From contig NZ_UGTM01000001.1 in the NCBI RefSeq assembly GCF_900454835.1, forward strand, positions 868,501 to 932,500: DNA of 64,000 nt, read 5' to 3'. This DNA comes from Prevotella denticola (GTDB lineage: Bacteria; Bacteroidota; Bacteroidia; Bacteroidales; Bacteroidaceae). A program made the translations under genes and the position numbers. Below are positions 5,854-54,975 of the stretch, piece by piece. The notes beneath the pieces were generated by a model. The model had not been told where the DNA came from, ran no database searches, and saw only the letters and a program-made list of their open reading frames with translations. Numbering within the stretch: the first letter of the stretch is position 1; every line of letters begins with the position of its first letter.

Positions 5854-6123
5854 CTATTCTACTACTGCCAATACGTCGCTCTGACGCATCATCAGGTATT
5901 TCTCTCCTTCACTTTCCAATTCTGTGCCGGCATACTTCCCATAGAGGACTTCATCGCCAACCTTGAGAATCATTTCCTCATCCTTGGTACCGTTGCCGAC
6001 GGCAACAATCTTGCCACGCTGTGGCTTTTCCTTGGCCGTATCCGGAATGATAATGCCACCAACTTTTTCTTCTGCCTGTGCCGGAAGCACGAGGACTCTG
6101 TCTGCTAAAGGTTTAATTGTCAT
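5854..6123 (-). CDS. groS: Co-chaperonin GroES (10 kDa subunit)
   Basis: Heptameric lid of the GroEL cage. The 89-residue protein starts [12 protein letters not shown] and has the mobile loop region with [17 protein letters not shown] and the roof loop around YAGTE. An upstream in-frame TTG at 6129 would add two residues; the ATG at 6123 gives the standard family N-terminus. It is the first gene of the groES-groEL pair. Its upstream region runs to 6561 and is shared with the divergent AlkD-like gene. I found no CIRCE inverted repeat there, so heat-shock control, if any, must use another mechanism. Confidence 0.95.
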
Positions 6124-6373
6124 AATCAATCTATTTTTAGTTCTAATCTGTCTTTTTTGTCCTACTGATGATGTAGTTTCGCCTTACCTTATACGAAAAG
6201 CGTGCCAAAGCGCCGTACTGGTATGTTCCGGAAACGCTTCTGCCAAACTGTCAGTCTGCTTTGATGTACGGGTATAGGCCTTCTACAAATTCCACATTGA
6301 ACTTTTGTTATATGAATATTGGGACCAGTAGATAATTAATGGGGATTATCATTTACCTCACTTTACTGTCAGT

Positions 6374-7568: not shown

Positions 7569-9623
7569 CTACTTGATCATGCTGACCGAACGTTTGAGAA
7601 ATCCGTCGAGAGCCTCTCCTTGCAGCATACCGTTCTGCAGCAGTGCCAGATCGATAAGCTGGTGGATAACCTCGTTACCCTTGGCATATGCGGCCACAAT
7701 GGCTTTTTGCTTATCCTTAAGTTCAGAGACTGACTTCTGCGTATTCTGCATATCGTCTTTCTCCTCCTGGGTGAGTTCCTCCGACTTCTTCTTGTCCTGC
7801 GACTGATGCAGGGCTGCAAGACGTGCTTCCTGTCCTTTCAGTTCACTTGCAACCGGCTTCAGTTCGTCTTCTGTATTGGCGGTCATGTCGTCGAGTACCT
7901 TCTTGACTAATGGATGGTCGGCATTCAGGACAAGATTGTAAGAGTCTGGGAGCTGCGCATAGAACCCCATTCCCTGCTGGAACCGGCTCATTTCCTTCAT
8001 ACGCCGCATATATTCGTTCTGCGTGATGAGAACCGGCTGGAAGCCCTCCCCAAGCGACTGGACATCAACTGTGAACTCGGCTTTTTCTATCTTTGGCATC
8101 TGGGATCTGAATGCCTCTGACAGATTGGCAGTCTCGTTCGCAGACAGGTTGTTCTTCGGTGCGTCTTCTTTCTGGATGATACGGTCTACAACGTCAGAAT
8201 CAACACGTACATAACGTGTCTTTTCCTGTTTCTGTTCGAGCATGGAAAGTGTCGGCACATCCAGCTGTCCGCTTGCATCGATGACACTGTACCCCTTCTG
8301 TCTGGCAGCCTCGATGTAGCTGTACTGTTCCTCCTTGTTGGTTGTATAAAGGTTGACGAGGAATCCTTCCTTGTCGGTCTGATTATCTTTCACGAGGGTC
8401 TTGTACTCCTCAAAGGTGAAATACTTTCCTTCGGTATCTTTCAGAAGTGCGAAGTCTTTGGCACGGTCGTAGAAGTCAGATTCGGAGAGCATTCCATAAT
8501 TGATGAAAAGTTTCAGGTCATCCCATTTTTCTTCATACTCCTTACGGTTCTCCTTGAAAATACTCTGCAGACGGTCTGCCACTTTCTTGGTAATGTAAGT
8601 TGCAATCTTCTTTACATTGGCATCACTCTGCAAATAACTTCGGCTGACATTCAGCGGTATGTCAGGTGAGTCGATGACACCATGCAGCAGGGTAAGGAAC
8701 TCAGGAACGATGCCTTCAACCTGATCGGTTACAAACACCTGGTTGCAATAGAGTTGAATCTTATTACGCTGCAGTTCGATGTTATTCTTCACACGAGGGA
8801 AGTAAAGGATACCCGTGAGGTTGAAGGGATAGTCAACATTCAGATGAATCCAGAACAGCGGTTCGTCGTTCATTGGGAAAAGCGTGCGATAGAAGCTCTT
8901 GTAGTCTTCGTCCTTCAGGCTGGACGGGGCCTTTACCCACAGTGGCTCGACGGCGTTGATTACATTGTCCTCGTCTGTCTCAACATTTTTTCCATCCTTC
9001 CACTCTGTCTTCTTGCCAAAGACAACAGGTACAGCCATGAACTTGCAGTATTTGTTCAGCAGCTCCTCAATCTTCGATTTCTGCAGAAACTCCTTGCAGT
9101 CATCATCGATGTAAAGCACGATGTCGCTGCCCCGGTCTGCCTTTTCTGCATCCTCTATCGAATATTCGGGACTTCCGTCACAGCTCCATTTAACAGCCTT
9201 GCTGCCTTCTTTGTAGCTTTTTGTGATGATTTCGACCTTCTTTGAAACCATGAAGGAAGAATAGAAGCCAAGACCGAAATGTCCGATGATGGCCTCAGCC
9301 TTGTCCTGATACTTTTCAAGGAAATCATTGACACCGGAGAAAGCTATCTGGTTGATATACTTGTCAATCTCCTCTGCTGTCATACCGATGCCACGGTCAC
9401 TGATGGTCAGTGTGCCGGCTTTCTCATCCAGGCTGATGCGGACACTCAGGTCACCCAGTTCACCCTTGAAGTCGCCGGTTGCAGCAAGTGTCTTCAGTTT
9501 CTGCGTGGCATCGACGGCGTTTGACACCATCTCACGAAGGAAGATGTCATGGTCGGAATACAAAAACTTTTTGATGACGGGGAAGATGTTCTCTGTCGTA
9601 ACCCCGATATTTCCTTTTTGCAT
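7569..9623 (-). CDS. htpG: Molecular chaperone HtpG (Hsp90)
   Basis: Cytoplasmic ATP-dependent Hsp90 homologue. From the chosen ATG it has 684 residues. The N-terminal GHKL ATPase domain shows the E-N pair in FLREMVSNAVDATQKL, DRGIGM, and GHFGLGFYSSFMVS (the ATP lid). Middle and C-terminal dimerisation domains follow. The frame stays open 33 nt further upstream to an earlier ATG, but MQKGNIGVTTENIFPVIKKF is the family start, so 9623 is preferred. It is convergent with the AlkD-like gene. A charged segment near the C-terminus (residues about 610-640) is unremarkable for the family. Confidence 0.95.
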   Translation of the reverse strand: MQKGNIGVTTENIFPVIKKFLYSDHDIFLREMVSNAVDATQKLKTLAATGDFKGELGDLSVRISLDEKAGTLTISDRGIGMTAEEIDKYINQIAFSGVNDFLEKYQDKAEAIIGHFGLGFYSSFMVSKKVEIITKSYKEGSKAVKWSCDGSPEYSIEDAEKADRGSDIVLYIDDDCKEFLQKSKIEELLNKYCKFMAVPVVFGKKTEWKDGKNVETDEDNVINAVEPLWVKAPSSLKDEDYKSFYRTLFPMNDEPLFWIHLNVDYPFNLTGILYFPRVKNNIELQRNKIQLYCNQVFVTDQVEGIVPEFLTLLHGVIDSPDIPLNVSRSYLQSDANVKKIATYITKKVADRLQSIFKENRKEYEEKWDDLKLFINYGMLSESDFYDRAKDFALLKDTEGKYFTFEEYKTLVKDNQTDKEGFLVNLYTTNKEEQYSYIEAARQKGYSVIDASGQLDVPTLSMLEQKQEKTRYVRVDSDVVDRIIQKEDAPKNNLSANETANLSEAFRSQMPKIEKAEFTVDVQSLGEGFQPVLITQNEYMRRMKEMSRFQQGMGFYAQLPDSYNLVLNADHPLVKKVLDDMTANTEDELKPVASELKGQEARLAALHQSQDKKKSEELTQEEKDDMQNTQKSVSELKDKQKAIVAAYAKGNEVIHQLIDLALLQNGMLQGEALDGFLKRSVSMIK

Positions 9624-10860: not shown

Positions 10861-13800
10861 TCAATCTTCAACGCTTAACCGCATCGCTCCAGTACGTCCA
10901 CAGTACTCAGGTGCATAGGCACACTGCGCTGTGCAGACACCAGTCTGATATACACCGGCACGGTTGATATAGTATTCCGTCTCCACAACGTGTTTGCCCT
11001 TTGCCATACGGTCAAAGTAATAGTTAGTGGTGTAATCTTTCGGAGCAATGTAATATCCCCAATGATAACCACTCAGCTGACTGACAGGCTCAAGACAGGC
11101 TGCCCGTTTGTCGGTGACCTGTACGAAATCGTAATCACGGTCGGCAATGATGGTAAGGCGGATACGGACTTTGTCGCCGATCTTTAGGACTTTGGTATCA
11201 GCGAGTCGGGTACTGTCAACCCAAACCTCACGCTTGACCTTCAAGCCCATTGCAGCATCTGTTATTTCTGATGCCGGTTGGAAGAACTGCGCAAAGACAG
11301 CACCCCAGCTCGTTCCTTCACTTACCTTGCTGATAGTCAGTTCATGGTGCTCAGACGGCCTGTACTCTACAGACTCTGTCGTCTTTACATAACCCAGTCC
11401 GGCTGTCGGTTGCGGAGTCTGCAGAGGCTTGCCATCCAGCATTAATTGTGCTTTTTCACCATTCTGCATCAGCCAGTCTCCGTTATTCATGAATGCCCAG
11501 ATGGCATTCACCGAGTTCAAGGGTGTATCCCAAGCCTGCGTACGTTTTTCCTGCAAGAGCCAACGTTGCATCTCTGCAAGCGTCTTCCCGTCAGCAGGTG
11601 TAACTGTCTTTACGGCTTCAATTGCTGCCACCTCTGTCGGAATCTTATAGTCACGCCAGCTGTAATAAGCATGCTTCGTGTCGAAGTAGCGTCCCATTTC
11701 CTCCCTATAGACCGAATACTCCTTCAGGCTTTGGAGATATTCCCGTGCCTTCTCCCCCTTATTATATTGCTGAAGTATCACAGCTGTATTCGCCTTGCCA
11801 TAGATAGTCAGATCTGCCGGTTTCTTTGTCAGACGGTCAATGAGATAGTCTATATCACCAGTAGTCCTCCCATGGTATAACAAAGCATGTGTATAAATAT
11901 AATCGCACAGCTCATCCGTGGGGAACAATGTGGCCTTGTATTTTTTTTCATCACGTTTCATTGCAGCTACGCGCTTTGCCACTTCTTTGTCCATATAATG
12001 GAAGGAGGCATTGATGATTGCAGACACTTCGGCCGACTTGTCTGTAAGATTTTGTAAACGTGCAAGGGTCTTCGTGACGGCAACCGTCATATAAAGACTG
12101 CCATTCATGCCTGGCCACCAAGAAAAAGATCCGTCAGGATTCTGCAGCTTCTTTAGGTCTGCCAGCGTTGTGGAAAGATTATTCTGCAACTGGCTCTCGT
12201 CAAAGAAACGTATGAGCATCTGCTTTCTTTCACGTTCATTGGCGGCATCTATCATCCAGGGTGTCTCGTCCAGGGGCAATGACTTCAGTTCCTGATTCTT
12301 CTCCAGTGCCGACATCATTGAAGTTTCTTTACCCGCTTCTTTCTTCCATTGTTCAATGACCTGCCTGATATTGGGCGATGTCTCGATGATCTGCTTCCCC
12401 AGGCGGTTTGCATAGTAGGCTGACACCAGACTGATGGCATTTTTGTCATCGGTTTTTGCCACGTATGGCAGAGCCTGGATCATCAGCCAGTTAGGATTGT
12501 TTGTATATTCTACTGTAAGCTTCTGTTTCGTACTGTTTTCTGCAAACAGTCTGCTCACATCTACAGTCTTCATGCCAGCGTCATGCTGACTGAAAGCGTA
12601 TGTATTCGTTGCATATTCCTGATCCTGAAATACCGGGAGATAATGCTGTTCACCGTCCGAGAAACCATCTCCCTCAACCGTGAAACGGGTAACAAGCAGC
12701 GACTGATCTGCCGTCAGCAAGTCGGCATCCTTCGACAGTAAAGAAGCCAGACTATACGTTACAGAAGCACTGCCCTGAGCCTTCAACACGACAGCCCTGC
12801 TGTCTGTAAAGAGTACTTTGTCAGTCATCGGGTCAATAATTTCGACCTTTGCATTCGCATGAACCGGCTTCTCTGACTGGTTGAACAGGCGTGCGGAGAC
12901 CATTGCCTCGTCACCGATACGCACAAAACGGGGCATATTGGGCTGGACCATTAATGTTTTCTGTGCAACAATCTCATCGCTGAGCATGCCGTTGTTCATA
13001 TCAACATCATGTGCCAGTCCGAGGAAACGCCATGTGGTGAGGCTCTCCGGGAGCGTGAACTTAATGCTTACATTGCCCTTACCGTCTGTATGCAGTTGCG
13101 GATAGAAGAAGGCCGTTTCGTTCAGATTCTCACGCAGGGAGCCTTTCCCCTTCTTCGTTTCTTCATCTTTTTTAATGACCGGAGCTGTGTACTTGACAGT
13201 TGCCTTGCATTCTCTTTTGGCAGTAACCTGCTCAGCACAACTGAACATCTTGCTTTCAACAGCATCGCTGTCAGCCATAGCCATTGGTACGGCCGCTCGC
13301 GACAACACCATGTTCTTCCTGGGGGCGTATCCCATAGTTACCACCTCACAGAAATCAAAACCTGACAGGAAACTACTGTCAAAGCCCGAGAGGGAAAGCT
13401 CTGGTACAGTCTTGGTCTTCGCTCTTGCAGCGGCATGGAGACTCAATGGACTGCGGTAGCCTGCCGACCAGTAGGTGCTTGACAAATCACGACCGAACGA
13501 CAGATGCAGATTCAGATTATGGGAGACGAACTCGTCCAGACTCTTGTCATAGAGCGTTGCCATCAGTTGTGCATCTGCTGCCTTTCCGTCAGGCCGGCTG
13601 ATGGTAGCCGTCCATTCTTCTTTCTGTCCCGGGACGAGTTTGTTGCGGAATGACTTCCACTTCACGATCAGCCGCTTGTCTGGCAGCGGTCGTAAGATTC
13701 TCTCCGCATGGCTGTACAACACGCCATTCTTCACCCAGGCGTAAGTGAGGGTTATACCGTCCCCATATTCCTCCTTATAATATAGTTTGCGTGTCTGAAT

Positions 13801-16407
13801 ACTGTTGCTCTGGTCGAAGATACCTGACTCGATGATTTTATTGCCTGAATAGATGGAATAAACCACATGCTGCTTCTCATCACTTGTTCCTACTTGCAAA
13901 TAGACAGGCCCGCCATTGCGTGGAAATTCATGACTGCTCAGATAGAACCAGTCGTGTGTCTTAACGACAGGACGTTTGTCATCCATCGAGAAAACAATAA
14001 AATCGGTATTCACGGTATCCGTTCCGCAGATGGCATGCAGTCGGTAGGCTCCCGATACCATGCGCCCCACTGGAAAAGATTCATTGGCCTTGGCGGTCTT
14101 GTAATTATGATAGGTGTACTTGCTTTCATCTGACTGTTGCGGAACAATCACATATCTGACAGTCCCATCCACCGTATGGCCAGCTGCATTAAGATAATCA
14201 AACTTGATAGTCTTCAGACTGTCGCGCAGGTTCTTTTCAGGAATGTTACATATCAGTGTAGTCTCCTTAGTTCCCAAAGGTAACGAAACAGAAGCGTCCC
14301 TTGTTTCGCCGGCAGTATCCGTCACCGATGCTTCCACCTCGAAAGCATAGAAGCGGGCACGTCCCCAGTGGTCAGTTTTCATGTCCTTTATCACGCCCTC
14401 AGGAAGTGTGAGAGGAACGGTCACACGGAAGTTGCCTTGCTCGTCTGTCACGACATCATCTGCCTTAATCTCCTGGTTGATGTCATCGTTATCCCACCAC
14501 CAAAGGCGTGGACGGCGCATAACAGTGTAATGCACCTTTGCCCCTTGTACAGGCACTCCGGCAAAGCTCCTGGCGTGGCCTGTCAGCCTGATGGTGTCAC
14601 CAATGGCGTATTTGCTCTTGTAGTCATCCAACCGAACCTCGAATGTGGGACGCTTGTATTCTTCGATGCGGAAACTCTTTGATGCCCGAGATCCACAGTC
14701 GGCCACGATGGAGCAGAGACCTGTCAGCCCTGTTGCCGGAAGTTCAAAGTCTGCCGCAGCAGTACCGAACCGGTCAGTCGTCACCATCTTGCGGCCGACC
14801 TCCTTTCCATTGACATTCTGAAGGATGAGATTGAATGTCTTGCCCTCCTCGGCTTTCGTCTTGAGTCCGGCCTTGGTCATCTGATAGACAATTGCAGAGG
14901 CATGCAGCGTCTGCCCAGGACGATAGATGCTCCTGTCCGTGTATACTTCCGACTGCAGTCCGGCCTTGTCCGACTTATAGAAACTGAATTGGCTGTACAT
15001 ACCTGTCGAAGGATAGGCCTTGTCGTTGGCCGTACAGACATAGACATCCGGCTCGGAGTTTTCCGATACGATCAATGCCTCGCCATTCTTATCGGTTGTC
15101 AGAGTCTTTGTTACCGGCTTCCTGCCATAACGTCCCCCATACGTCAGCTGAAGCGTCGCACCAGCTACCGGCTGCCCATCCTGGGCATCCACCACGACAT
15201 AGCGCGACTTCTTTCCCGGTTGCCGTTCGGTCATCACGTAGAGATTGGTCACATAGTAAAGGGCATATTCCGGGGCAAAACACTTGTCCTGACTCTCTAT
15301 CTTCAGGAGATAGACACCGAGCGGCAAGGCCGGCATCTGGAAAGAATCCTTGAACTCCTCGTAGTTCTTGTGTACATCGTAGGTGCGCTGAATTACCTGC
15401 CTCGTTGATGGTATCAGGCTGGGCTTCAGCCTGCCTGGATCAGCCAGATTATCCATGTCGAACTGGTGATTGCCTTTCAGTGTCGTTCGCGTGATAGTAA
15501 ATGTTATCCCCTTCAGGTTGCGGACTTCCAGCAATACGGTGTTGTCATGCGTCCCCGGCATAGTCCAGTTGCTCTTCATCCCAAAACTGTATTTGGGTGC
15601 AGTCAGTTCTTTGCGGGCATTGCGCAATGCTTCAATACCTTTCCATGTGCCCCACCGTACGAGAGCCTTGTCGATAAAAGCAACCTTCTCCTTCACCGGT
15701 ACATCATCATCCATGGCATTGTACCGTTCTACGGCGACCTGTCCGCAGATAGGCAAATCGCCATACAACTGGATGAGCGAGTCAAGTCGGGAGACAGCCT
15801 TTTCGTCATCCTCGTCAACAGCCAGCATTGCGGTGTAACACGCGGCCTCCCTGTTACCCTGTCCTGCATAGTAACGGCTTAGCTTCGTGTAGTCACCAGC
15901 TGCCATACCGATAACGTGCAGCAGGTCGCCATTGAAGAGGCTGTCATCCTTACCCATCGAGACAAGCGGCTGATAGTCGGCCGCTCTCTGGCGTGCCAGC
16001 AGAGACGGATTGGCAAGTGCCTTGCGAAAATACAGATCGGCTTTTCCATCATCTTCTCTTTTGGAAAGAACTCCGAGGATGCAGTTGTAGACGGCAGCCA
16101 GAACTTCATTCTTCCGCTCGGCTTCCTTTGCCCGTTCCTTCAGATTGTTTATTTCTACCTCCAATGAATCTGGCGAAATACTGGTTTTCAGCTGTAAAGA
16201 CAGAAGATTTGCTGCCAGCAACTGCCCGTATATTTTTTCCCTTCGTGCCTTTCGCTCAATCTTATCCAGCAGGTTGATCTGCGTCTTAGGCAGGTCTTTC
16301 TGCCGTGCCTGTTCCACCTGTTTCCATAAAGCATCGAAACTCTGTGCTGACATCGTCATAGGCAATAACAATCCTATCAATAATAAAACTATAAGCGATT
16401 TCTTCAT
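10861..16407 (-). CDS. Alpha-2-macroglobulin-like secreted protein, no thioester at the usual place
   Basis: A 1848-residue exported protein of the bacterial alpha-2-macroglobulin (MG2/YfaS-like) group. These are envelope proteins thought to trap proteases or take part in periplasmic defence. A signal peptide (residues 1-21, ending SAQ) is clear. MG-type domains follow, including YTDRSIYRPGQTLHASAIVYQ (MG2/MG3, near residue 490). ENLNETAFFYPQL near residue 1090 corresponds to the conserved block after the bait region. The TED-like helical domain starts near residue 1310. There the family's CxEQ thioester is replaced by KTDDKNAISLV. An SCAEQ near residue 1057 lies in the bait region and is probably chance. 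It is a single gene with its own promoter. Confidence 0.88.
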   Translation of the reverse strand: MKKSLIVLLLIGLLLPMTMSAQSFDALWKQVEQARQKDLPKTQINLLDKIERKARREKIYGQLLAANLLSLQLKTSISPDSLEVEINNLKERAKEAERKNEVLAAVYNCILGVLSKREDDGKADLYFRKALANPSLLARQRAADYQPLVSMGKDDSLFNGDLLHVIGMAAGDYTKLSRYYAGQGNREAACYTAMLAVDEDDEKAVSRLDSLIQLYGDLPICGQVAVERYNAMDDDVPVKEKVAFIDKALVRWGTWKGIEALRNARKELTAPKYSFGMKSNWTMPGTHDNTVLLEVRNLKGITFTITRTTLKGNHQFDMDNLADPGRLKPSLIPSTRQVIQRTYDVHKNYEEFKDSFQMPALPLGVYLLKIESQDKCFAPEYALYYVTNLYVMTERQPGKKSRYVVVDAQDGQPVAGATLQLTYGGRYGRKPVTKTLTTDKNGEALIVSENSEPDVYVCTANDKAYPSTGMYSQFSFYKSDKAGLQSEVYTDRSIYRPGQTLHASAIVYQMTKAGLKTKAEEGKTFNLILQNVNGKEVGRKMVTTDRFGTAAADFELPATGLTGLCSIVADCGSRASKSFRIEEYKRPTFEVRLDDYKSKYAIGDTIRLTGHARSFAGVPVQGAKVHYTVMRRPRLWWWDNDDINQEIKADDVVTDEQGNFRVTVPLTLPEGVIKDMKTDHWGRARFYAFEVEASVTDTAGETRDASVSLPLGTKETTLICNIPEKNLRDSLKTIKFDYLNAAGHTVDGTVRYVIVPQQSDESKYTYHNYKTAKANESFPVGRMVSGAYRLHAICGTDTVNTDFIVFSMDDKRPVVKTHDWFYLSSHEFPRNGGPVYLQVGTSDEKQHVVYSIYSGNKIIESGIFDQSNSIQTRKLYYKEEYGDGITLTYAWVKNGVLYSHAERILRPLPDKRLIVKWKSFRNKLVPGQKEEWTATISRPDGKAADAQLMATLYDKSLDEFVSHNLNLHLSFGRDLSSTYWSAGYRSPLSLHAAARAKTKTVPELSLSGFDSSFLSGFDFCEVVTMGYAPRKNMVLSRAAVPMAMADSDAVESKMFSCAEQVTAKRECKATVKYTAPVIKKDEETKKGKGSLRENLNETAFFYPQLHTDGKGNVSIKFTLPESLTTWRFLGLAHDVDMNNGMLSDEIVAQKTLMVQPNMPRFVRIGDEAMVSARLFNQSEKPVHANAKVEIIDPMTDKVLFTDSRAVVLKAQGSASVTYSLASLLSKDADLLTADQSLLVTRFTVEGDGFSDGEQHYLPVFQDQEYATNTYAFSQHDAGMKTVDVSRLFAENSTKQKLTVEYTNNPNWLMIQALPYVAKTDDKNAISLVSAYYANRLGKQIIETSPNIRQVIEQWKKEAGKETSMMSALEKNQELKSLPLDETPWMIDAANERERKQMLIRFFDESQLQNNLSTTLADLKKLQNPDGSFSWWPGMNGSLYMTVAVTKTLARLQNLTDKSAEVSAIINASFHYMDKEVAKRVAAMKRDEKKYKATLFPTDELCDYIYTHALLYHGRTTGDIDYLIDRLTKKPADLTIYGKANTAVILQQYNKGEKAREYLQSLKEYSVYREEMGRYFDTKHAYYSWRDYKIPTEVAAIEAVKTVTPADGKTLAEMQRWLLQEKRTQAWDTPLNSVNAIWAFMNNGDWLMQNGEKAQLMLDGKPLQTPQPTAGLGYVKTTESVEYRPSEHHELTISKVSEGTSWGAVFAQFFQPASEITDAAMGLKVKREVWVDSTRLADTKVLKIGDKVRIRLTIIADRDYDFVQVTDKRAACLEPVSQLSGYHWGYYIAPKDYTTNYYFDRMAKGKHVVETEYYINRAGVYQTGVCTAQCAYAPEYCGRTGAMRLSVED

Positions 16408-16800: not shown

Positions 16801-17418
16801 TCACACAAGATACGTGAACTTATCAAAATGAGCAAAGCCCAAGGCCTCCAACCGCTGCTGACTCAACAGGCGATCCTCTTCCGTATTATAATCCGGTATC
16901 AAAGGCAGGCGGAGAATAACCTTGTCTGCATATCCGTTCGCCGCCAGCCACACAAGATTACGGATTACCTGTGTATTGTCCTTGCCCGTATAAGCGTTAT
17001 AGATTGTTGGACTAAAATCTTTGATGTCTATATACCACATCTGAACCAATGCGGCAATCATCTTAATATTTTCAAGCGGGACATTGATCGATGTCTCTAC
17101 CGTCAGCTTCCATTCCGGGTTCATGAGCTTGGAGAAAGTCCTGATGAAATCCGGATATAAAAGCGGCTCACCCCCTCCAAAACAGATGCCGCCACCTGTC
17201 GCTATAAAGTAAAGGTCGTCAATCTCCACCTCGCTGTACAGCTCGCCCGGGGTCAGCCTGCGCCACACGCCATCAACCTGTAAACATTGAGGGTTTAAAC
17301 AGTACCGGCAACGGAGCGGACATCCATGGAAGGCGACCAAGGTCGTCACCCCTTCTCCGTCAGTGGCAAGTCTGTGCCGGTTGACGGCTATAAACGGTGC
17401 GGTTATTTCTGGCTGCAT
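16801..17418 (-). CDS. Short radical SAM enzyme, activating-enzyme-like
   Basis: A 205-residue radical S-adenosylmethionine protein. The cluster-binding motif C33-x3-C37-x2-C40 is in FHGCPLRCRYC, with a further Cys at 45. The SAM-contacting GGGEP is at residues 81-85, and the DIK motif of glycyl-radical activating enzymes is in WYIDIKDFSP. The protein is shorter than pyruvate formate-lyase activases (about 245) and has no extra ferredoxin domain. Its start lies inside the 3' end of the preceding Cys-motif protein gene (16-nt overlap), implying translational coupling in a three-gene operon. No glycyl-radical enzyme is nearby, so the target is probably one of the two upstream proteins or an unlinked enzyme. 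Class firm, substrate unknown. Confidence 0.85.
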   Translation of the reverse strand: MQPEITAPFIAVNRHRLATDGEGVTTLVAFHGCPLRCRYCLNPQCLQVDGVWRRLTPGELYSEVEIDDLYFIATGGGICFGGGEPLLYPDFIRTFSKLMNPEWKLTVETSINVPLENIKMIAALVQMWYIDIKDFSPTIYNAYTGKDNTQVIRNLVWLAANGYADKVILRLPLIPDYNTEEDRLLSQQRLEALGFAHFDKFTYLV

Positions 17419-18095
17419 TTCTCTTTATGCGACCTGGGAGCCTTTTTATCAGTATCTTCTGAAATAAGCGAATCTGGTACAACCATCCCCAACTCATACC
17501 ATTTAGGTAATAGGTACACCATAACTTCATGGGATTTCTTTAGGGTACTGACGGGCAGTTCACTGTCCAAATAAGAAGCAGAACCGGAAAAGACAAGCGT
17601 ATCATTGCAGCCAACACGCAAAGAGAAGCGTCCATCTTCACCCAACACTATGCCCTTTGTACCTCCCAACCTACGGACGACGGCATGACTGATGGGTTTA
17701 TCCGAATTGCTATCCCTCACCTGACCATTAATCACAACTGAATGTTGCATATCTGTTGTAAGCGTTTTCACCACTTCAACTTTCTTTCCTTGAAGTGGCA
17801 CGTCTGTTTCTTTCTGTACTTTGTCAGATTTCGGCAGGTTACTGCATGAGGCAAAAGGAGCGATTGCGACACAAGCCCCTGCCGCCAGACCAGCTACTTT
17901 TATATTCCAACCTTTTTTTATCCGTTCTCTCAACTGCATCTCCAAATAACGGATTTCCTGTTCACAGGCTGGACAGGTACCTGTGCAGTCGCCTTCGAAA
18001 TGACACTCGGCCGGCTGGTACCTGATACCATTTGCATCTGCTATTTTCTGCCGGATATTCTTCAGAACCTTACAAGTAATCTTTCCTTTCCTCAT
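17403..18095 (-). CDS. Cys-motif, single-span, CarboxypepD_reg-like protein (paralogue B)
   Basis: A 230-residue protein with three parts. Residues 1-55 form a helical segment with a cysteine motif, C31-x5-C37-x3-C41-x2-C44, followed by QEIRYLEMQL. Residues about 62-82 are a hydrophobic span ending in a small-residue SC. Residues about 118-195 form a beta-rich domain like carboxypeptidase regulatory domains (INGQVRDSNSDKPISHAVVR). The tail carries SHKEK. The same order, cysteine spacing and SHKEK tail occur in the gene upstream, 16 nt away, so the pair arose by duplication. The Cys domain would be cytoplasmic and the beta domain periplasmic. The motif could bind an iron-sulfur cluster or zinc. 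I assign no function; it may be carrier, partner or substrate of the overlapping radical SAM enzyme. Confidence 0.75.
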   Translation of the reverse strand: MRKGKITCKVLKNIRQKIADANGIRYQPAECHFEGDCTGTCPACEQEIRYLEMQLRERIKKGWNIKVAGLAAGACVAIAPFASCSNLPKSDKVQKETDVPLQGKKVEVVKTLTTDMQHSVVINGQVRDSNSDKPISHAVVRRLGGTKGIVLGEDGRFSLRVGCNDTLVFSGSASYLDSELPVSTLKKSHEVMVYLLPKWYELGMVVPDSLISEDTDKKAPRSHKEKCSQK

Positions 18096-18111
18096 AACAT
18101 CAATATATCAT

Positions 18112-18825
18112 TTACTTATTTTCCTTGTTCTTTTCCTTGTGCGACTTCGGCTTGCAAGTATTACGACCATAAACATCATCGCAACTTGACTCTCCAGCTG
18201 CTCCGACTACTACAATACCCAGTATATCCTGATCTTCCTCAAGAGCAATAATATTATCTTGAGAATGTAAAAGAGTTCTTGCAAGAACCTTTTTCTTCTT
18301 ATAACCGACAAAAGAAATAATCAAGGAAGCATCAGGTGGAGTCTTTAAGGAAAACAGCCCCTCCATATTAGTTGCAGCACCACTATGGGTGCCATCAATC
18401 AATACTGAAGCACCAGCCAAAGGAGCCTTGTCAGCTTTATCTACGATCTTCCCGCAGATGAGTATTGAGTCCTTACAATCACTCGGATAGCTTTTTGTTT
18501 TTACAGTATCTTTCTTCGTTGTAATTACCCGTCCATTGGGTATTCCGTCAGAAGTAACTTTTTGTGCAGTAGCCATCATGGGTATAACCGTAGCACAGAT
18601 ACCTGCGGCGACACCTGCCACCTTCGTACTGAAACCTTTGTTCTTACGCACGTTCAACTGGTGTTCCAAGTAGCGTATTTCCTCTTCACAGACAGGACAA
18701 GTATCTGTACAGTCACCCTTGTGGTGACATTCGCAAGGCTGATAGCTGATGGCATTTGCATCTGCTATCTGCTGCCGAATATCCTTAAGTATCTTGCAAA
18801 TGTCTTTTCCTGTTTTCTTCTTCAT
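18112..18825 (-). CDS. Cys-motif, single-span, CarboxypepD_reg-like protein (paralogue A)
   Basis: A 237-residue paralogue of the next gene. The N-terminus MKKKTGKDICKILKDIRQQI is followed by C33-x5-C39-x3-C43-x2-C46 and EEEIRYLEHQL. A hydrophobic span lies near residues 62-84. A CarboxypepD_reg-like beta domain follows (ICGKIVDKADKAPLAGASVL, then SFVGYKKKKV). The C-terminus is Lys-rich with SHKEK, and extra cysteines occur near DSILIC and SSCDD. The frame is open 39 nt further up, but a -7 promoter element at 18862-18869 would overlap that start, so the ATG at 18825 is chosen. It is the first gene of the operon ending with the radical SAM enzyme. Confidence 0.75.
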   Translation of the reverse strand: MKKKTGKDICKILKDIRQQIADANAISYQPCECHHKGDCTDTCPVCEEEIRYLEHQLNVRKNKGFSTKVAGVAAGICATVIPMMATAQKVTSDGIPNGRVITTKKDTVKTKSYPSDCKDSILICGKIVDKADKAPLAGASVLIDGTHSGAATNMEGLFSLKTPPDASLIISFVGYKKKKVLARTLLHSQDNIIALEEDQDILGIVVVGAAGESSCDDVYGRNTCKPKSHKEKNKENK

Positions 18826-18861
18826 AATCAGAACCTCAAAAATTGACCTGATATCCTTTTG

Positions 18862-18869
18862 CAAAAATA
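18862..18869 (-). promoter_or_regulatory. Putative -7 element for the Cys-motif/radical SAM operon
   Basis: Minus-strand TATTTTTG followed by CA. It lies 37 nt before the ATG at 18825 and overlaps an upstream in-frame ATG at 18864, which excludes that ATG as the start. Confidence 0.6.
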
Positions 18870-43591: not shown

Positions 43592-44704
43592 CTAATTTGT
43601 ATAGCGTTTTCCATTCTCATAATGGCCGCTTGCTGTCACTTTCCCGTTCTTGTCCCGTTCTATGAATTTCCCATCACGACGGTCATCACGATAACTGCCT
43701 TCAAAGCGTATGCCCGTAGCAGATTCTTCGACAGCACTTCCGTTACGTTTCCCATTGTGGTAGCTGCCACGGAACTTACTGCCGTCGGCATAATGGATAA
43801 TAACAAGACCTTCAACGACACCGTTTCTGAACTGCCCTTCATAGATATCCATGTTCTTCTTTGTCAGCTTTCCTTGTCCGTTCTGTACGCCTTTTTCCCA
43901 ATATCCTGTATAAATGTCCCCATTGTGCCACGACATCGTACCGAACCCGGACTTGAGGCCTTTCAGGAAATGCCCGGAATACTGGTCACCGTTTTTATAG
44001 CGGAAAATCCCCTGCCCTGTGCGTTCCCCATCCACGTATTCTCCTTCATAGCTCTCACCGTCCTTGAATTTATAGATGCCTTTTCCGTTCTGCAGGTCAT
44101 TTTTCCACTCGCCGTTATACTCGTCACCATCTGCATAGATATAGATTCCCTTTCCCTCTTTCAGGTTATTCACCCAGTCTCCCGTGAACGAAGACCGGTC
44201 CGGCCAGCAGAATCGGCCGTGTCCGTTCTTCATGTCATTCTTCCATGAACCATCGTAGAAAGCGCCATTGGCGAAAATATATTTTCCTTCACCGCTGCGT
44301 TTGTCATGGTCCCAGTTCCCGACATATTTGTCACCATTGTAATAATACATCGTACCCTGCCCCTGCTGATAGTCCTTATACCACAGACCGTCATAACGGT
44401 TACCGTTGGAGAAGTAGTAGACCCCCTGTCCGTGCTGCTGGTCCTGGAACCACTGCCCGGTATATTTCTCACCATCGGAGAAGGTATAGGTTCCTTCTCC
44501 CTGCCGAAAGCCTTTCATATATTCCCCCTCGTAGACATTTCCTTTCTTGTAAACGGTCTTGCCTCTGCCGTTCGGTTTTCCACGGAACATCTGTCCATGG
44601 TAACGGCCTCCATCCCTTGTCGTGCAGTCTCCAATTTCTATCTTCTGCGCAAAGAGACAGGAAGGGATAAAAAACAACAATATGATAATATGCAGATTTC
44701 TCAC
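43592..44704 (-). CDS. Exported MORN-repeat protein
   Basis: A 370-residue protein with a probable signal peptide (MRNLHIIILLFFIPSCLFA) and at least twelve MORN repeats. Each runs about 23 residues (Y-x-G-x-W/F pattern), for example DKYVGNWDHDKRSGEGKYIF and DEYNGEWKNDLQNGKGIYKF. MORN repeats form extended beta-hairpin sheets that bind lipids or proteins. The initiating codon appears to be GTG at 44704, since the only nearby upstream ATG is in another frame that stops at once. A -7 promoter element lies 46 nt upstream. Likely transcribed into glgB; the reason for that pairing is not evident. Confidence 0.78.
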   Translation of the reverse strand: MRNLHIIILLFFIPSCLFAQKIEIGDCTTRDGGRYHGQMFRGKPNGRGKTVYKKGNVYEGEYMKGFRQGEGTYTFSDGEKYTGQWFQDQQHGQGVYYFSNGNRYDGLWYKDYQQGQGTMYYYNGDKYVGNWDHDKRSGEGKYIFANGAFYDGSWKNDMKNGHGRFCWPDRSSFTGDWVNNLKEGKGIYIYADGDEYNGEWKNDLQNGKGIYKFKDGESYEGEYVDGERTGQGIFRYKNGDQYSGHFLKGLKSGFGTMSWHNGDIYTGYWEKGVQNGQGKLTKKNMDIYEGQFRNGVVEGLVIIHYADGSKFRGSYHNGKRNGSAVEESATGIRFEGSYRDDRRDGKFIERDKNGKVTASGHYENGKRYTN

Positions 44705-44749
44705 GCCATTTCGGTTTTAAGTCCATTTAAATTGAATATAACCTTAATG

Positions 44750-44757
44750 CAAAGATA
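44750..44757 (-). promoter_or_regulatory. Putative -7 element for the MORN gene
   Basis: Minus-strand TATCTTTG followed by CA, 46 nt before the GTG at 44704. Confidence 0.65.
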
Positions 44758-45164
44758 CCCATTTCCATCGAAAATAGCAAATTTATAAATCTTTTTTAAG
44801 CAATAGTCGTTGGCAGATTCTTATGACAAATACACATATACCAGAGGTTGCTATCCCGTCTGTATTCCCGTCACATCATAAAAAGTGCGGCTTAATTGCC
44901 AACACTTTGTTATATTCCAATATTTTTATCTGCAGTTCCGCATAAGTTTCCGTCTACCGGTCGCAGCATTGCTGATATTTCCGTTGTACATCCGGCAAGT
45001 CGTTCATTGTCACCGTTCCTGCCTGATGGATGTTACTACAGGAAACAGAAGAGAAACATCATACGGTTGGTATTACGTTTCCCAGTTTTGTGTTTCCTCA
45101 AAGTATCTGACCGTTATCAGTAAAAAAATCCGGTAAGACGGCAAATGAGTGGATACAGGAATAT
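44758..45164. other. Gap between the MORN promoter and the insertion sequence
   Basis: About 400 nt with no supported gene. The frames open here have no recognisable family character. No copy of the dispersed repeat and no clear 22-bp period was found. Confidence 0.5.
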
Positions 45165-45195
45165 CCTTAATTCCGCAGCACAATTTCTTGTGAGA
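45165..45195 (+). repeat. Left terminal inverted repeat of the IS1380-type element
   Basis: Begins CCTTAATTCCGCAGCACAAT and pairs with 46737-46767 over nearly all of 31 positions. Confidence 0.85.
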
Positions 45196-45296
45196 ACTCC
45201 AAGTGCCTGAGAAACAAAGTTCTCAAAACACTTGGATATGTCAGAAATTTCACCTATCTTGGTGCTGCAAACATAACAAGTAAGCAAAAATCTGAC

Positions 45297-46598
45297 ATGA
45301 CAAAGGTAGCAATAAAAAACGAGAATATCGCTTCTTTCGGTGGAATTTATCACATCATGGACGTTTTTTCAAGGTTGGGCTTTGAAAAACTTACCGAATC
45401 CGTGTTGGGCAGACGCGGATGCAGCGGCAAGGCATTCAGCCATGGAAGCATTTTCGGCTCTCTCTTCTTCAGCTACCTTTGTGGTGGAGAATGCCTTGAG
45501 GACATCAATGTGCTTATAGGGCAGTTCAAGCAGAGACCTGACACGCAATTACCCGGTGCCGACACTGTGGGGCGCGGACTAAAGGAGCTTGCCGAAAAGA
45601 ATATTGTCTATAAGAGCGAGACCTCCGACAAGTCGTATAGTTTCAACACAGCAGAAAAGTTGAATACCTTACTTTTACGGATGATACGGAGAATGGGGAT
45701 TATAAAGGTAGGCAGTCATGTTGACTTAGACTTTGACCACCAGTTTATTCCAGCCCACAAGTTCGATGCAAAGTATTCTTACAAGCAGGATTCTGGCTAT
45801 TTCCCCGGTTGGGCTTCCATTGGGGGAATCATAGTCGGAGGTGAGAATCGTGACGGAAACACTAATGTGAGATTCCATCAAGAAGACACGCTCCGTCGCA
45901 TTATGGACCGTGTAACCTCAGAACTTGGGGTGGTAATAGAGCGTTTCCGTGCCGATTGTGGATCGTTCTCAAAGGAAATCATCCAAACCGTAGAGCAGCG
46001 TTGCAACACGTTCTACATACGTGCAGCCAACTGCGGCAGCCGACACGAGGACTTCGGCCAGCTGAAAGAATGGAAGAGTGTTGAGGTTGGTTATGAGAAA
46101 TGCGATGTCACCTCCGTCAGCATGGACAACTTAATAGAAGGAAAGTCATACAGGCTTGTCGTACAGCGTACTCCCTTGAAAGACAGGCACGGCAGGGAAC
46201 AGACGGATATGTTCGGGGTGATATACACATACCGCTGTATCCTTACCAACAACCAGACATCCACAGAGAAGGACATCATCACATTCTACAATGAACGCGG
46301 AGCGAGCGAAAAGAACTTCGATATACAGAACAATGACTTCGGATGGTCACATCTGCCATTTTCCTTCATGGCTGAGAACATGGTTTTCATGATGGTTACC
46401 GCCATGCTGAAGAACTTCTATCTCTATCTCGTCCGTCATATCAGCGAGAAGGTCAAGCCGTTGAAAAAGACAAGCAGGCTGAAAGCCTTTATCCTGCATT
46501 TCGTCAGCGTGCCAGCAAAATGGGTGCGCACTGGAAGACAGAACGTTCTGAACCTATATACAAATAAAACTTACTACGCTGAAGTCTTCATTGAATAA
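45297..46598 (+). CDS. IS1380-family transposase
   Basis: A 433-residue DDE transposase, the normal length for the family. Candidate catalytic residues are the Asp in GSHVDLDFDHQ (residues about 140-150), the Asp in ERFRADCGSF, and the Glu in NERGASEKNFDIQNNDFGW. The last is the IS1380 signature with an insertion before the Glu. LPFSFMAENMVFMMVTAM closes the catalytic fold. It is intact, with no frameshift, so the element may still move. The start ATG at 45297 lies 101 nt inside the left inverted repeat. Confidence 0.92.
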   Translation: MTKVAIKNENIASFGGIYHIMDVFSRLGFEKLTESVLGRRGCSGKAFSHGSIFGSLFFSYLCGGECLEDINVLIGQFKQRPDTQLPGADTVGRGLKELAEKNIVYKSETSDKSYSFNTAEKLNTLLLRMIRRMGIIKVGSHVDLDFDHQFIPAHKFDAKYSYKQDSGYFPGWASIGGIIVGGENRDGNTNVRFHQEDTLRRIMDRVTSELGVVIERFRADCGSFSKEIIQTVEQRCNTFYIRAANCGSRHEDFGQLKEWKSVEVGYEKCDVTSVSMDNLIEGKSYRLVVQRTPLKDRHGREQTDMFGVIYTYRCILTNNQTSTEKDIITFYNERGASEKNFDIQNNDFGWSHLPFSFMAENMVFMMVTAMLKNFYLYLVRHISEKVKPLKKTSRLKAFILHFVSVPAKWVRTGRQNVLNLYTNKTYYAEVFIE

Positions 46599-46736
46599 AC
46601 ACTATTTCTTTGTGGCTATCATACTTCCCCATTGGTTTGGGTGGGGGATTTTATGCTTAGAAAAGAACCAAGAAACACCGAAGCACCTCATATCAACATA
46701 TAGAACCCCAAAAAGACATCTCAACATATAAAATTT

Positions 46737-46767
46737 TCTCACAAGAAAAAATACTGCGGAATTAAGG
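46737..46767 (-). repeat. Right terminal inverted repeat of the IS1380-type element
   Basis: Complement of the left repeat with a few mismatches. Its last six bases supply the final codon and stop codon of the small secreted-protein gene on the minus strand. Confidence 0.85.
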
Positions 46768-46962
46768 CTTTATATAAATGGTATATGTACCATCTTCAAA
46801 GAAAAAGCCATAGCTTCCATCGCTAAAGGTAACCTCATCATAACCATCATGGTGCTTGATTTCTGTTACTTCAATTTTGGAACTACTTTTAGCAGCAACT
46901 GTTTGTGGTGCAACTACTCCTAAACTAAGAGCTAGTGCCAACGAAAATAAAATTTTTTTCAT
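46762..46962 (-). CDS. Small secreted protein, 3' end formed by the IS
   Basis: A 66-residue product with a clear signal peptide (MKKILFSLALALSLGVVA, cleavage near VAAK, residue 24). The mature part has about 42 residues and looks like one beta-sheet unit (KIEVTEIKHHDGYDEVTFSD, then SYGFFFEDGTYTIYIKP). The final Pro codon and the TAA lie inside the right inverted repeat of the neighbouring insertion sequence. The natural C-terminus may therefore be lost. It starts 49 nt after the outer-membrane protein stop and is probably the last gene of that operon. No family recognised. Confidence 0.6.
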   Translation of the reverse strand: MKKILFSLALALSLGVVAPQTVAAKSSSKIEVTEIKHHDGYDEVTFSDGSYGFFFEDGTYTIYIKP

Positions 46963-47011
46963 TTCTTTTTGATTTTAAATTATTTATAATAACAGGATGC
47001 CCTGTTTATCT

Positions 47012-49552: not shown

Positions 49553-50370
49553 TTCTTGCTCAAATCTTCTATCAACAAAGGAGTCAACTTTCTTTTCTTT
49601 GTGTTACCGCTGCCACGCACACCTTTGAGTCTGATGATAGTTTCCTGTGGGTCGGTAGCAGTAAGAACTTCGAGTTTCTGTAAGTCGGCTGCATTTGTAT
49701 TTATAAAGTTTTTCTTAGCAATAGCAATCTTTTCTCCATGTCCTTTTTGTATGCCTGTGCATTCAAAAGTATATTCGGCATTGTCAGAAACTGCTTTCAG
49801 TATCAGTCCTGGTAATCCACATAGTTTCCAAGGTCCTTCACTTATGGTGAGGTCGGGCGTATACCATACTGTCCATACTCTGCCACGAAAAGCCGTTCTT
49901 GCCTTGTTGCAACTATATTCGGCAATGATGCTGTCGCCATCTAAAAGTTCCCATTCTAACGTTGGCATATCCTCCTCATACTTAAAGGTTGTATTCCCCA
50001 CAAGTTCTGTGGTATAAGTAAGTTTGTTTGCTATGGGATAGTTCTTCAATACTACATAGTGTTGTCCTAATTTAGAACTTGCTCTCATCTTGGAACTTGC
50101 TGCTAGAACCTGAGAAAGATTTCCGCCCGTGGTTTGTACCACACTGTCTAATGTCTGCTGTTGTGTTATGTTAGTGGCAGAATAGAAACTGCTGCTGTGC
50201 TTTCCAACCAATAATATCATATCATCGAACAGCTGCGGACGTTCTACACAAGACTTAAATGCTGCTTTATAACTAATTTTTAGCGTAGCCGTGTCTGTTT
50301 GCCCACAAATAGAGCTTAGTTTAAACACGGCAGCTAAAAATATGAGTATTATTTTGTATCTATATTTCAT
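49549..50370 (-). CDS. GLPGLI family protein
   Basis: A 273-residue exported protein (signal peptide to about residue 23, LSSICGQTD). It carries the diagnostic KLCGLPGLILKAVSDN block near residue 188, after VWYTPDLTISEGPW. GLPGLI proteins are periplasmic or surface proteins of unknown function found only in Bacteroidota, usually beside a TonB-receptor-like protein, as here. It is the first gene of the three-gene operon. A -7 promoter element TATTTTTG-CA lies 42 nt upstream. The coupling to the next gene implies balanced synthesis. Confidence 0.85.
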   Translation of the reverse strand: MKYRYKIILIFLAAVFKLSSICGQTDTATLKISYKAAFKSCVERPQLFDDMILLVGKHSSSFYSATNITQQQTLDSVVQTTGGNLSQVLAASSKMRASSKLGQHYVVLKNYPIANKLTYTTELVGNTTFKYEEDMPTLEWELLDGDSIIAEYSCNKARTAFRGRVWTVWYTPDLTISEGPWKLCGLPGLILKAVSDNAEYTFECTGIQKGHGEKIAIAKKNFINTNAADLQKLEVLTATDPQETIIRLKGVRGSGNTKKRKLTPLLIEDLSKK

Positions 50371-50411
50371 AGGTGTTTTATTGTATGACGTAATTGTGTA
50401 CTATATGACTG

Positions 50412-50419
50412 CAAAAATA
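50412..50419 (-). promoter_or_regulatory. Putative -7 element for the GLPGLI operon
   Basis: Minus-strand TATTTTTG followed by CA, 42 nt before the ATG at 50370. Confidence 0.6.
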
Positions 50420-50832
50420 CATAATTTATTCCAACCCTACAAATTCTAGATTTAAATAATATGCAATAGTGTTGTTTAAAGCACTTCGATGACTTTTTGC
50501 AAAATATAAAGCAAGTAAATACATTTGTGTATGCAGTAATGTCTAAAAACAAAGCAATACTGAAAATCCTCTTTTTTATACTCTCATGTAAGTAGTATGT
50601 AGTCATATTTTAGCAACACCCATAAACACCTGTTTGATACAATGTAATTCTTTCTCTTTCAACTACATATCTTGTATTGTAGTAATATAGTAAGATAACA
50701 GTGAAAGAAAAAGGATTGGTACATATTCAGCTATTGACACCCCTGCCATATATGATAATTGGGGTGAGAGCATTCCGTAGACGTATTAACTCACTGCACA
50801 CATGCTTTCTGAACAGGTGGGTTTCTACACTG
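50420..50832. other. A+T-rich gap between the GLPGLI operon and the conjugative element
   Basis: No gene or clear signal in about 400 nt. The junction between host or other accessory DNA and the conjugative element probably lies here or between 51154 and 51523, but I could not fix it. Confidence 0.35.
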
Positions 50833-51153
50833 TCAAGTTGGAAGGATAGGGCAATGATGATTGGGAGCGGGTAAAAAGGGGGCATAACCTGCCAACTCTT
50901 TATCTCTGCCTATTACCCTCTCACCTGCACACCTTTCATCAGGGTACAGGTCGGGATTGTGGATTATATTTTGAAGCCTGCCATTGAACTTCCTCCATGT
51001 TACCCCGAAGAATCTCGCAAGTTCGCCCTCTGTCATGGCAATTTCTCCGTTTCCCTTGCAGACTACATGCATATTGCTGCCCCATTCAAGGCGGCTGCGC
51101 TCCTTGTTCTCATAAGATTTTATATCTGTCTGTGATTTGTTATTTGAATTCAT
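50833..51153 (-). CDS. Small protein with a possible helix-turn-helix, near the integrase
   Basis: A 106-residue protein, not assigned to a family. The charged N-terminus (KSYENKERSRLEWGSNMHVV) is followed by EIAMTEGELARFFGVTWRKFNGRL, which reads like a helix-turn-helix. DERCAGERVIGRDKELAGYA comes next. The last 20 residues (proline and histidine rich) are different in character, so the frame may be shifted or cut short. It is divergent from the integrase, a usual place for a regulator of excision or integration. That role is a guess from position. Confidence 0.5.
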   Translation of the reverse strand: MNSNNKSQTDIKSYENKERSRLEWGSNMHVVCKGNGEIAMTEGELARFFGVTWRKFNGRLQNIIHNPDLYPDERCAGERVIGRDKELAGYAPFLPAPNHHCPILPT

Positions 51154-51269
51154 ACCGTTTCCTCCATTTCATAGATTGAAATCTCCGAAGGGTCACAACC
51201 CTCTCTCTCCGCTAATAGGCTTCAAAAGGACTTCACAAGGGTTGTCAATTTAGCCTTCAAAAATTAGCT

Positions 51270-51507: not shown

Positions 51508-51523
51508 AAAAGAATGATGCATT

Positions 51524-54971: not shown

Positions 54972-54975
54972 GCCT

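Follow-up and report, generated by a model that had tools for sequence, protein, structure and literature searches.

We describe a small operon of Prevotella denticola in which a short radical SAM (S-adenosylmethionine) enzyme, similar in fold to the activases of glycyl-radical enzymes (GREs), is encoded next to two proteins that start with a conserved five-cysteine domain. The operon lies in a stretch of 64,000 nucleotides (hereafter the window; G000:C3:868501-932500 of a 3.17 Mb genome in three contigs), for which an earlier reading of the letters alone (hereafter the original prediction) had drawn attention to these genes. Our preferred interpretation, held with moderate confidence, is that the five-cysteine domain (hereafter the head) guides modification by the enzyme of glycine motifs in the proteins that carry it (the clients), prior to their export. 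The evidence consists of the nearly complete coincidence of enzyme and head across genomes, a hydrophobic stretch after the head that looks like a cleavable export signal, and a short glycine motif that recurs in the otherwise variable C-terminal regions of the clients.

The operon

Three consecutive open reading frames (ORFs) on the minus strand, P0003, P0002 and P0001, form a compact unit as judged from the ORF coordinates, with a gap of 16 bp between P0003 and P0002 and an overlap of 16 nt between P0002 and the enzyme gene P0001. The three genes named in the original prediction, including the 16-nt overlap, are recovered as proteins of 237, 230 and 205 amino acids (aa), respectively. The features discussed below are the following (NTE, N-terminal extension; PFL, pyruvate formate-lyase).

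18112..18825, minus strand: Cys-head protein B, P0003, 237 aa, with head, signal stretch ATA|Q, SusC-NTE/CarboxypepD_reg-like domain and flexible tail (ORF, Pfam, AlphaFold2)
18631..18825, minus strand: five-Cys head of P0003, aa 1-65 (C10, C33, C39, C43, C46; alignment, AlphaFold2)
18565..18624, minus strand: hydrophobic signal stretch of P0003, aa 68-87, predicted cut before Q88 (signal-site rule)
18202..18225, minus strand: ILGIVVVG of P0003, aa 201-208, a non-acidic variant of LxG[DE]V directly after the beta domain (sequence comparison)
17403..18095, minus strand: Cys-head protein A, P0002, 230 aa, with head, FASC lipobox-like signal, CarboxypepD_reg-like domain scoring below cut-off, and tail (ORF, Pfam)
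17910..18095, minus strand: five-Cys head of P0002, aa 1-62 (alignment)
17844..17900, minus strand: signal stretch of P0002, aa 66-84, with lipobox-like Cys 84 (signal-site rule)
17469..17495, minus strand: ELGMVVPDS of P0002, aa 201-209, a weak motif variant (sequence comparison)
16801..17418, minus strand: radical SAM enzyme P0001, 205 aa, PFL-activase fold, CX3CX2C at aa 33-40, DIKD at aa 131-134 (Pfam, fold match)

P0002 and P0003 are paralogues as the original prediction held, with 38% identity over 233 columns (E 5e-45) and 66% over a 67-column alignment of the heads; a head search found no third copy in the window's genome. Both terminate in SHKEK followed by 4-5 further residues, an ending that had also been noted correctly. 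Similar tails are found in 46 of 225 head matches (several genes being fetched twice), exclusively in the window and its near relatives. Synteny of the operon is kept in four near relatives (G443, G479, G579 and G740), where the enzyme is 74-78% identical, the same long gene lies downstream, and 4-5 readable Cys-head genes stand in tandem (4-6 profile matches). A single promoter for the three genes was not borne out: judged against the TAnnTTTG/TTTG promoter consensus, there is just a TAnnTTTG box 44 nt upstream of the P0003 start, and the accompanying TTTG box is at an unusual distance.

Pairing of enzyme and head across genomes

Co-occurrence of the two gene types in other genomes had been set as the test of their relationship, and this test is strongly passed. 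Among 393 genomes sampled from the order, the head (E < 1e-15) is present in 15 and the enzyme (E <= 1e-30) in the identical 15. At E <= 0.01 the head search returned 24 genomes, nine of which (best E from 1.7e-4 to 0.0094) were set aside; the matches in L042, L043 and L046 were seen to be unrelated proteins and the others were excluded on E-value alone. In 399 genomes of the family the head was detected in 49 and the enzyme in 46, all of them within the 49. The three genomes with a head and no enzyme match differ in kind: in G398 the head gene is adjoined by a fragment that, as judged by eye, is similar to the beginning of the enzyme, in G677 the head is attached to an ADP-ribosylglycohydrolase, and in G739 it is located at a contig end. 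A sample of 395 genomes from the phylum yielded matches only in the window's own genome and in G165. In a search of one genome per species, the head profile has at least 581 relatives.

The two genes are also close neighbors. At 57 of 79 named loci the enzyme lies in the flanks, and there the nearest head is always on the same strand, at a median gap of 2 bp and within 50 bp in 43 cases. Twelve of the 22 loci with no flanking enzyme were tested, and the enzyme was found elsewhere in 11 of the 12 genomes, the exception being the genome of L155. The maximum seen is one enzyme with seven head proteins in a row (L159). Some enzymes are easily overlooked, those of L203 and L213 lying under longer antisense frames and that of L207 being visible by tblastn. 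Four loci in metagenome-assembled genomes labelled Bacillota, Clostridia or Oscillospiraceae (L139, L160, L164 and L167) may be mis-binned, as their enzymes fall among those of Bacteroidales in the enzyme tree. In the same tree, which has many open forks and long branches, the signal-less, phage and fused forms described below are nested among the exported ones. Our best guess from these sequence associations is that the enzyme acts on its partner proteins.

In L199 a short stretch (6087-6248), similar by eye to the first part of the enzyme, adjoins an intact head client in which motif-like strings are still found; it is probably a remnant left by a recent loss of the enzyme.

The enzyme resembles PFL activase

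P0001 belongs to the radical SAM superfamily (PF04055, 60.3 bits vs a cut-off of 29.5), and the structure closest to it is that of PFL activase, with Z 23.4 over 197 residues, 2.0 Å, 20% identity and a TM score of 0.87 normalised on the query, which confirms the short, activase-like radical SAM enzyme of the original prediction. In 44 aligned enzymes the cluster cysteines C33, C37 and C40 are the sole invariant ones (a cysteine in column 99 is nearly invariant and replaced by Met in P0001). D131 and K133 are invariant in the same alignment and align to the D-L-K of PFL activase, a DxK motif of the kind found in GRE activases. Curated models place the enzyme near the activases and outside of them: it scores 85.8 bits with the PFLA model TIGR02493 (84.4 in the genome search) vs a cut-off of 231.75, and 123.2 bits with TIGR02494 vs a cut-off of 174.35, and it is below cut-off for the best 25 of the 32 NCBIfam models matched. 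The C-terminal set of auxiliary cysteines typical of SPASM/Twitch domains is absent from the 205-aa protein and from the 44-enzyme alignment.

The operon contains no GRE, so that the original prediction is also right in noting that none is nearby. The genome's one protein with a Gly_radical domain (PF01228) is on contig C2, adjoined by its own PFL-type activase (287.7 bits). One NRDD is encoded about 36 kb from the operon; no activase was found within a few kb of it, and no NrdG model scores above cut-off in the genome. A 155-aa protein at G000:C2:380500, with a weak score of 24.7 bits, is presumably NrdG-like, as judged by its size and motif. A role in defence was considered and rejected, since P0002 and P0003 match no PADLOC model and P0001 matches only a weak viperin model (E 3.6e-4).

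The head and the probable export signal

The C-x5-C-x3-C-x2-C motif that the original prediction reported is exact in both P0002 and P0003, and the 5-3-2 spacing is shared by 221 of 224 family matches, the remaining three, spaced 4-4-2, all being heads fused to the enzyme (three of the four fusions known to us). The first helix contributes a fifth cysteine, conserved in 223 of 223 matches counted; in these counts, as in the counts of the strict motif given below, some genes were fetched and hence counted twice. In the AlphaFold2 model of P0003, helices 6-23 and 44-62 flank the Cys loop, at a block pLDDT (predicted local distance difference test) of 71-91. Membership of the head in a known curated family was rejected, nothing in Pfam or NCBIfam scoring above cut-off; PHROGs gave no match for one phage head protein, a zinc ribbon (PF08274) was matched below cut-off, and sequence matches in the PDB were weak. 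The head probably binds a metal, either zinc or an auxiliary iron-sulfur cluster. That its CX3CX2C spacing recurs in the enzyme does not in itself argue for a cluster.

The hydrophobic stretch after the head, which the original prediction read as a membrane span, ends in ATA|Q in P0003 and in FASC in P0002, and looks like a cleavable Sec signal with a predicted cleavage site. The tail table from which the relatives were drawn holds 149 rows (152 matches less two with no readable motif and one duplicate tail), and removal of ten rows (three fused, seven truncated or tail-less) leaves 139 testable unfused members, which are not nonredundant. By a home-made rule (AxA|Q or lipobox) used in place of a dedicated predictor, the hydrophobic stretch is followed in 124 of the 139 by a predicted site, of the signal-peptidase I type with Gln in 49 and a lipobox Cys in 75, compared to 55.5 ± 5.7 sites when the stretch is shuffled. 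The sites are located 30-41 residues past the last head cysteine; of the remaining members, 11 have a site with a residue other than Gln and 4 have no site. A Gln directly after the cleavage site agrees with the known Q-rule of Bacteroidetes (PMC5837995).

With a signal that is probably cleaved in place of a span, the head would most likely be a leader that the preprotein carries in the cytoplasm, and not one end of a bridge. The lasting link from cytoplasm to periplasm that the original prediction considered is accordingly unsupported, the more so as heads of phage proteins, stand-alone heads and heads fused to the enzyme have no visible export signal, and we dropped a transmembrane conduit from consideration.

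A glycine motif in the clients

What follows the head varies among clients and can be TonB_C, NTE/CarboxypepD, serpin, HIRAN, ADP-ribosylglycohydrolase or just a short acidic tail; in TonB-like clients, TonB_C scores above the Pfam cut-off in 7 of 7 tested. At the locus itself, the CarboxypepD_reg-like domain that had been assigned to both paralogues holds for P0003 (57.1 bits vs 32.2) and not for P0002, which is below the cut-off (24.2). Identification as a SusC-like receptor was rejected, TIGR04056 scoring 65.8 bits in P0003 and 14.3 in P0002 vs a cut-off of 368.25 and matching only profile positions 3-96 and 3-50, respectively, of 981. A TonB transducer was rejected for the two proteins as well; they match neither TonB_C nor a receptor plug or barrel.

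One short pattern recurs in these variable regions. In 64 nonredundant mature regions the top two residue pairs are L-x-G (39 vs 13.8 expected) and G-x-V (44 vs 19.8). From 58 nonredundant C-terminal regions, obtained by clustering 182 unique tails with a length of 60 residues or more, a de novo search by expectation maximization derived the motif [LIV]-[EMQ]-G-[DE]-[VIP], with a glycine frequency of 0.94 and a log-likelihood of 168.8, compared to 85.5-91.8 in five shuffled sets searched with equal effort. A strict form, [LIVMF]xG[DE][LIVMPFY], is found in 40 of the 58 regions (8.7 ± 2.6 expected) and in 15 of the 23 tails no longer than 130 residues (1.7 expected), with 0-4 copies per client. 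Of 132 further exported proteins encoded at these loci, which serve as a control, 6 contain the pattern, with 7.5 expected. PFL activase acts on a glycine in a flexible loop of its target, with a valine two residues earlier (V-S-G-Y), and by analogy this loop resembles the [LIV]-x-G part of the motif.

Clients with a beta domain can be compared with related proteins that have no head. A pattern filter for such clients was crude and caught 7 of 64. When one window rule is applied directly after the NTE/CarboxypepD domain, the strict motif is present in 22 of 45 headed proteins and in 0 of 22 head-less proteins, the latter from the window's genome (Fisher p 1.8e-5, a value that ignores kinship); an LxEVVV-like string is found there in 3 of 45 headed vs 17 of 22 head-less proteins. 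Three of the 45 headed rows are misplaced windows, which were retained. The close group around the window accounts for about half of the headed rows with no motif. In close relatives the gene adjoining the enzyme reads VGEID (L194, L196, L197), VGGID (L195) or EMGKI (L198), and other paralogues read MLGDL, IVGEI, IVGGI, LDGIV or TVGGI; three have the glycine-less MNEIV/MNEII.

The motif counts and the de novo model suggest the C-terminal glycine motif as the likely target, and the cysteines of the head, which the original prediction had offered as a possible site of modification, are disfavored in that role.

Phage-borne, fused, stand-alone and plasmid forms

Clients encoded next to the enzyme on phages have no export signal that we could see, and they keep the motif. 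In L171 (IMGVR_UViG_3300021399_005556), where both a head maturation protease and a terminase are matched on the contig, the client reads ILMGDVAPPDE, and the clients of L172-L174 have ILEGDVTPPEDD ahead of a HIRAN domain (HIRAN and terminase matches are found in L173).

Two neighbors of these phage pairs deserve mention in their own right. AbiLi- and AbiLii-like genes adjoin the pair in L173 and, as judged by eye, in L174. Right after the phage client of L171, positions 8420-8767 hold an ORF of 115 aa that is lipoprotein-like and consists of near-identical repeats of C-x-GYGY-x-V-x-YT-x-R.

Natural fusions of enzyme and head were found four times, with the head positioned C-terminal to the barrel. 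In three of the fusion genomes the next gene encodes a peptide of 71-76 aa whose leader-like start is invariant, as are G32, G50 and G60-D61-I62, and is followed by a TonB-receptor gene (by Pfam in L081, by likeness in the other two). In these sequences the head has moved from the client to the enzyme and the motif has remained in a free peptide.

Stand-alone heads of 85-88 aa are found beside the enzyme at two loci (L085:8443-15233 and L212:5073-10783), in a cassette consisting of head, enzyme, a protein of ~1250 aa with LRR and Sel1 repeats and a DUF1848 protein; L085 also includes a DUF3800 protein (PADLOC PDC-S51). Possibly the cassette is a mobile conflict system in which this pair of enzyme and head is employed. 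A relaxase-like gene adjoins the L085 cassette, as judged by eye. The operon was also found on a 93-kb plasmid of Segatella copri (L233, NZ_CP137558.1), and both clients there are annotated 'energy transducer TonB' yet start with the Cys head and a signal.

Proposed mechanism

Sequence comparison and modelling establish the pairing, the head, the signal-like stretch, the motif and the fold. What we infer from these observations is a modification of glycine, and with it the chemistry, the metal, the cleavage, the order of events and the purpose. The enzyme, a putative trimmed relative of the activases of GREs, would recognise the N-terminal five-Cys head of a client that is still in the cytoplasm. 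It would abstract hydrogen at, and so modify, the glycine of at least one [LIV]-x-G-[DE]-[VIP] motif in the flexible C-terminal region, the head serving as a docking or electron-transfer domain. The product could be a crosslink, an oxidation, a cleavage or a stored radical. Most of the clients seen would then take the Sec route, and removal of head and signal by signal peptidase I or II would leave a modified protein in the periplasm or a modified lipoprotein.

Several observations weigh against this scheme. The strict motif is lacking in 58 of the 182 unique clients, including both clients on the Segatella plasmid and the two proteins of the window itself, where P0003 (ILGIV) and P0002 (ELGMV) miss the acidic residue. 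At the position of ILGIVVVG in P0003, modelled with a block mean pLDDT of 59, ordinary NTE proteins mostly have LxEVVV-like strings. Most clients with a beta domain in the window's close group have no strict form either, and part of the motif signal in such clients could come from the edge of the domain itself; because the equal-rule comparison is weaker in the window's own group, we rate the proposal slightly lower than we otherwise would. Shuffled sequences underrepresent low-complexity acidic linkers, a bias against which the 132 exported control proteins help. Because of their homology, the three peptides beside fused enzymes amount to a single independent case. No client was recognised beside the stand-alone heads of L085 and L212, whose neighbors have the motif at about chance level except for two matches in the DUF1848 protein of L085, and none beside the fusion of L204, whose neighbors were judged by eye. 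As to the head, its Cys loop is modelled at moderate confidence and the zinc-ribbon matches are below cut-off.

Alternative explanations

It is conceivable, and in our judgment unlikely, that the motif is an unmodified interaction or sorting motif and the enzyme acts on another target. The motif is short, lies mostly within acidic linkers and is missing in its strict form from a third of the unique clients, all of which would suit such a role. The range of its carriers, which includes exported proteins, lipoproteins, signal-less proteins, phage proteins and a free peptide beside a fused enzyme, makes a common location or a common partner other than the enzyme hard to name, and among the other exported proteins encoded at these loci the motif is no more frequent than expected by chance.

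About as improbable is an explanation in which the head itself is the substrate or, as the original prediction proposed, the electron-transfer partner, and the motif serves a later step, for example binding of a periplasmic partner. Head and enzyme are the sole parts common to the forms observed, including the stand-alone heads, and the fifth cysteine is kept in all 223 matches counted. The fusions point the other way: the auxiliary domains of other radical SAM enzymes lie C-terminal to the barrel, as the head does when it is fused, and a head in that position is easier to explain as an auxiliary domain than as a substrate. The motif, moreover, accompanies the enzyme into phage proteins with no visible export signal, and a purely periplasmic use therefore does not explain it.

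We consider it quite doubtful that the clients are minimal glycyl-radical proteins in which a stable radical is stored at the motif glycine, as PFL activase does in PFL. The nearest relatives of the enzyme in fold and sequence are GRE activases, and the hydrophobic residue two positions before the glycine recalls V-S-G-Y of PFL. Most of the clients observed are signal-bearing, however, the motif tends to lie in a linker or tail (in P0003 at low pLDDT) that could hardly shield a radical, and P0002 and P0003 have no Gly_radical match, the genome's only PF01228 match being elsewhere.

That P0001 simply activates the PFL or the NRDD of its own genome, and is placed beside the paralogues by chance, is very unlikely. 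In favor of this idea, its score with the PFLA model is 84 bits, and NRDD has neither an activase nearby nor an NrdG model above cut-off in the genome. Against it, the PF01228 protein is adjoined by an activase of its own, a presumably NrdG-like protein (24.7 bits) does exist, and the enzyme tracks the Cys head across genomes, with other members borne on phages.

Comparison with known systems

The proposed glycine modification is best compared with PFL activase (PDB 3cb8/3c8f/8fo0), which shares with P0001 the fold, the CX3CX2C and DxK motifs and the expected action on glycine. The differences are that P0001, at 205 aa, aligns only to residues 2-203 of the 244-residue chain of the activase, and that it is paired with Cys-head proteins and has no GRE partner in the operon. 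The proteins annotated 'energy transducer TonB' and the SusC NTE proteins resemble the clients in that some of the latter have TonB_C and others NTE/CarboxypepD domains, whereas P0002 and P0003 match neither TonB_C nor plug or barrel.

A cytoplasmic radical SAM enzyme that modifies proteins before Sec export, in Bacteroides among others, is already known in the anaerobic sulfatase-maturating enzyme (anSME), which reads a CxPSR-type motif and has SPASM clusters. Modification ahead of export is what the two systems would share; the Cys head and the LxG[DE]V motif set the present one apart.

Ribosomally synthesised and post-translationally modified peptides (RiPPs) offer another parallel. Like their precursors, the clients have a conserved leader and a variable part with a recurring motif, the strict form of which is absent from the 58 of 182 mentioned above. 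The radical SAM maturases of RiPPs that have SPASM/Twitch domains or a RiPP recognition element are similar in leader guidance, an adjacent precursor, recurring core motifs and several precursors per enzyme. In the present system, unlike these, the Cys domain is on the client and the only invariant cysteines of the enzyme are those of the cluster motif, and the clients are mostly full proteins with Sec-type signals; this comparison with sactisynthases, epimerases and other radical SAM maturases draws in part on a review (PMC8326336). Sec signals are called rare among bacterial RiPP precursors in the portion of PMC12452194 consulted, which also describes bufferins and other RiPPs modified by MNIO enzymes, whose precursors have Sec or lipoprotein signals and are in some cases long. 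There the enzyme class is different and the modified part consists of Cys-containing motifs, and the same portion describes no separate head ahead of the signal for MNIO RiPPs.

The open-licence literature searched gave no description of the pairing of enzyme and head, and such a class does not appear in the parts consulted of a mining study of Bacteroidales RiPPs (PMC10352776) or of the review of radical SAM RiPP enzymes (PMC8326336). The system would be a form of leader-guided radical SAM modification, with a fair chance of forming a class of its own. The fuller claim, for which we put the chances somewhat below even, is that radical SAM enzymes of a so far undescribed class modify proteins in many Bacteroidales and in some phages, a glycyl-radical activase having turned into a general modifier of glycine in LxG[DE]V motifs. 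Both the specificity and the auxiliary metal site would reside in a portable five-Cys domain, which the client normally carries ahead of the Sec signal and which is discarded after use, or which in some lineages is fused to an enzyme that modifies a separate small peptide.

Other features of the window

Directly downstream of the operon, positions 10861-16407 encode an exported protein of 1848 aa, which we take to be similar to bacterial alpha-2-macroglobulins; its adjacency to the operon is kept in close relatives. Farther away, positions 44000-58000 have a GC content of 0.39-0.45 vs about 0.44-0.53 elsewhere in the window and contain ORFs that by eye look like those of transposases, integrases and mobilisation proteins, and this segment is perhaps an integrated mobile element.

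Implications

If the proposed glycine modification is real, the activase of GREs would be separable from its giant enzyme partner and reusable on short peptides, and a metal domain that is discarded after use could, by its place ahead of a Sec signal, coordinate the timing of modification in the cytoplasm with that of export. With one enzyme, one head and a short motif the unit is compact, and if active on grafted motifs it would possibly provide a tool for the modification of glycine in chosen proteins. For the bacteria themselves, it would mean that many exported proteins and lipoproteins of common gut species carry an additional post-translational modification.

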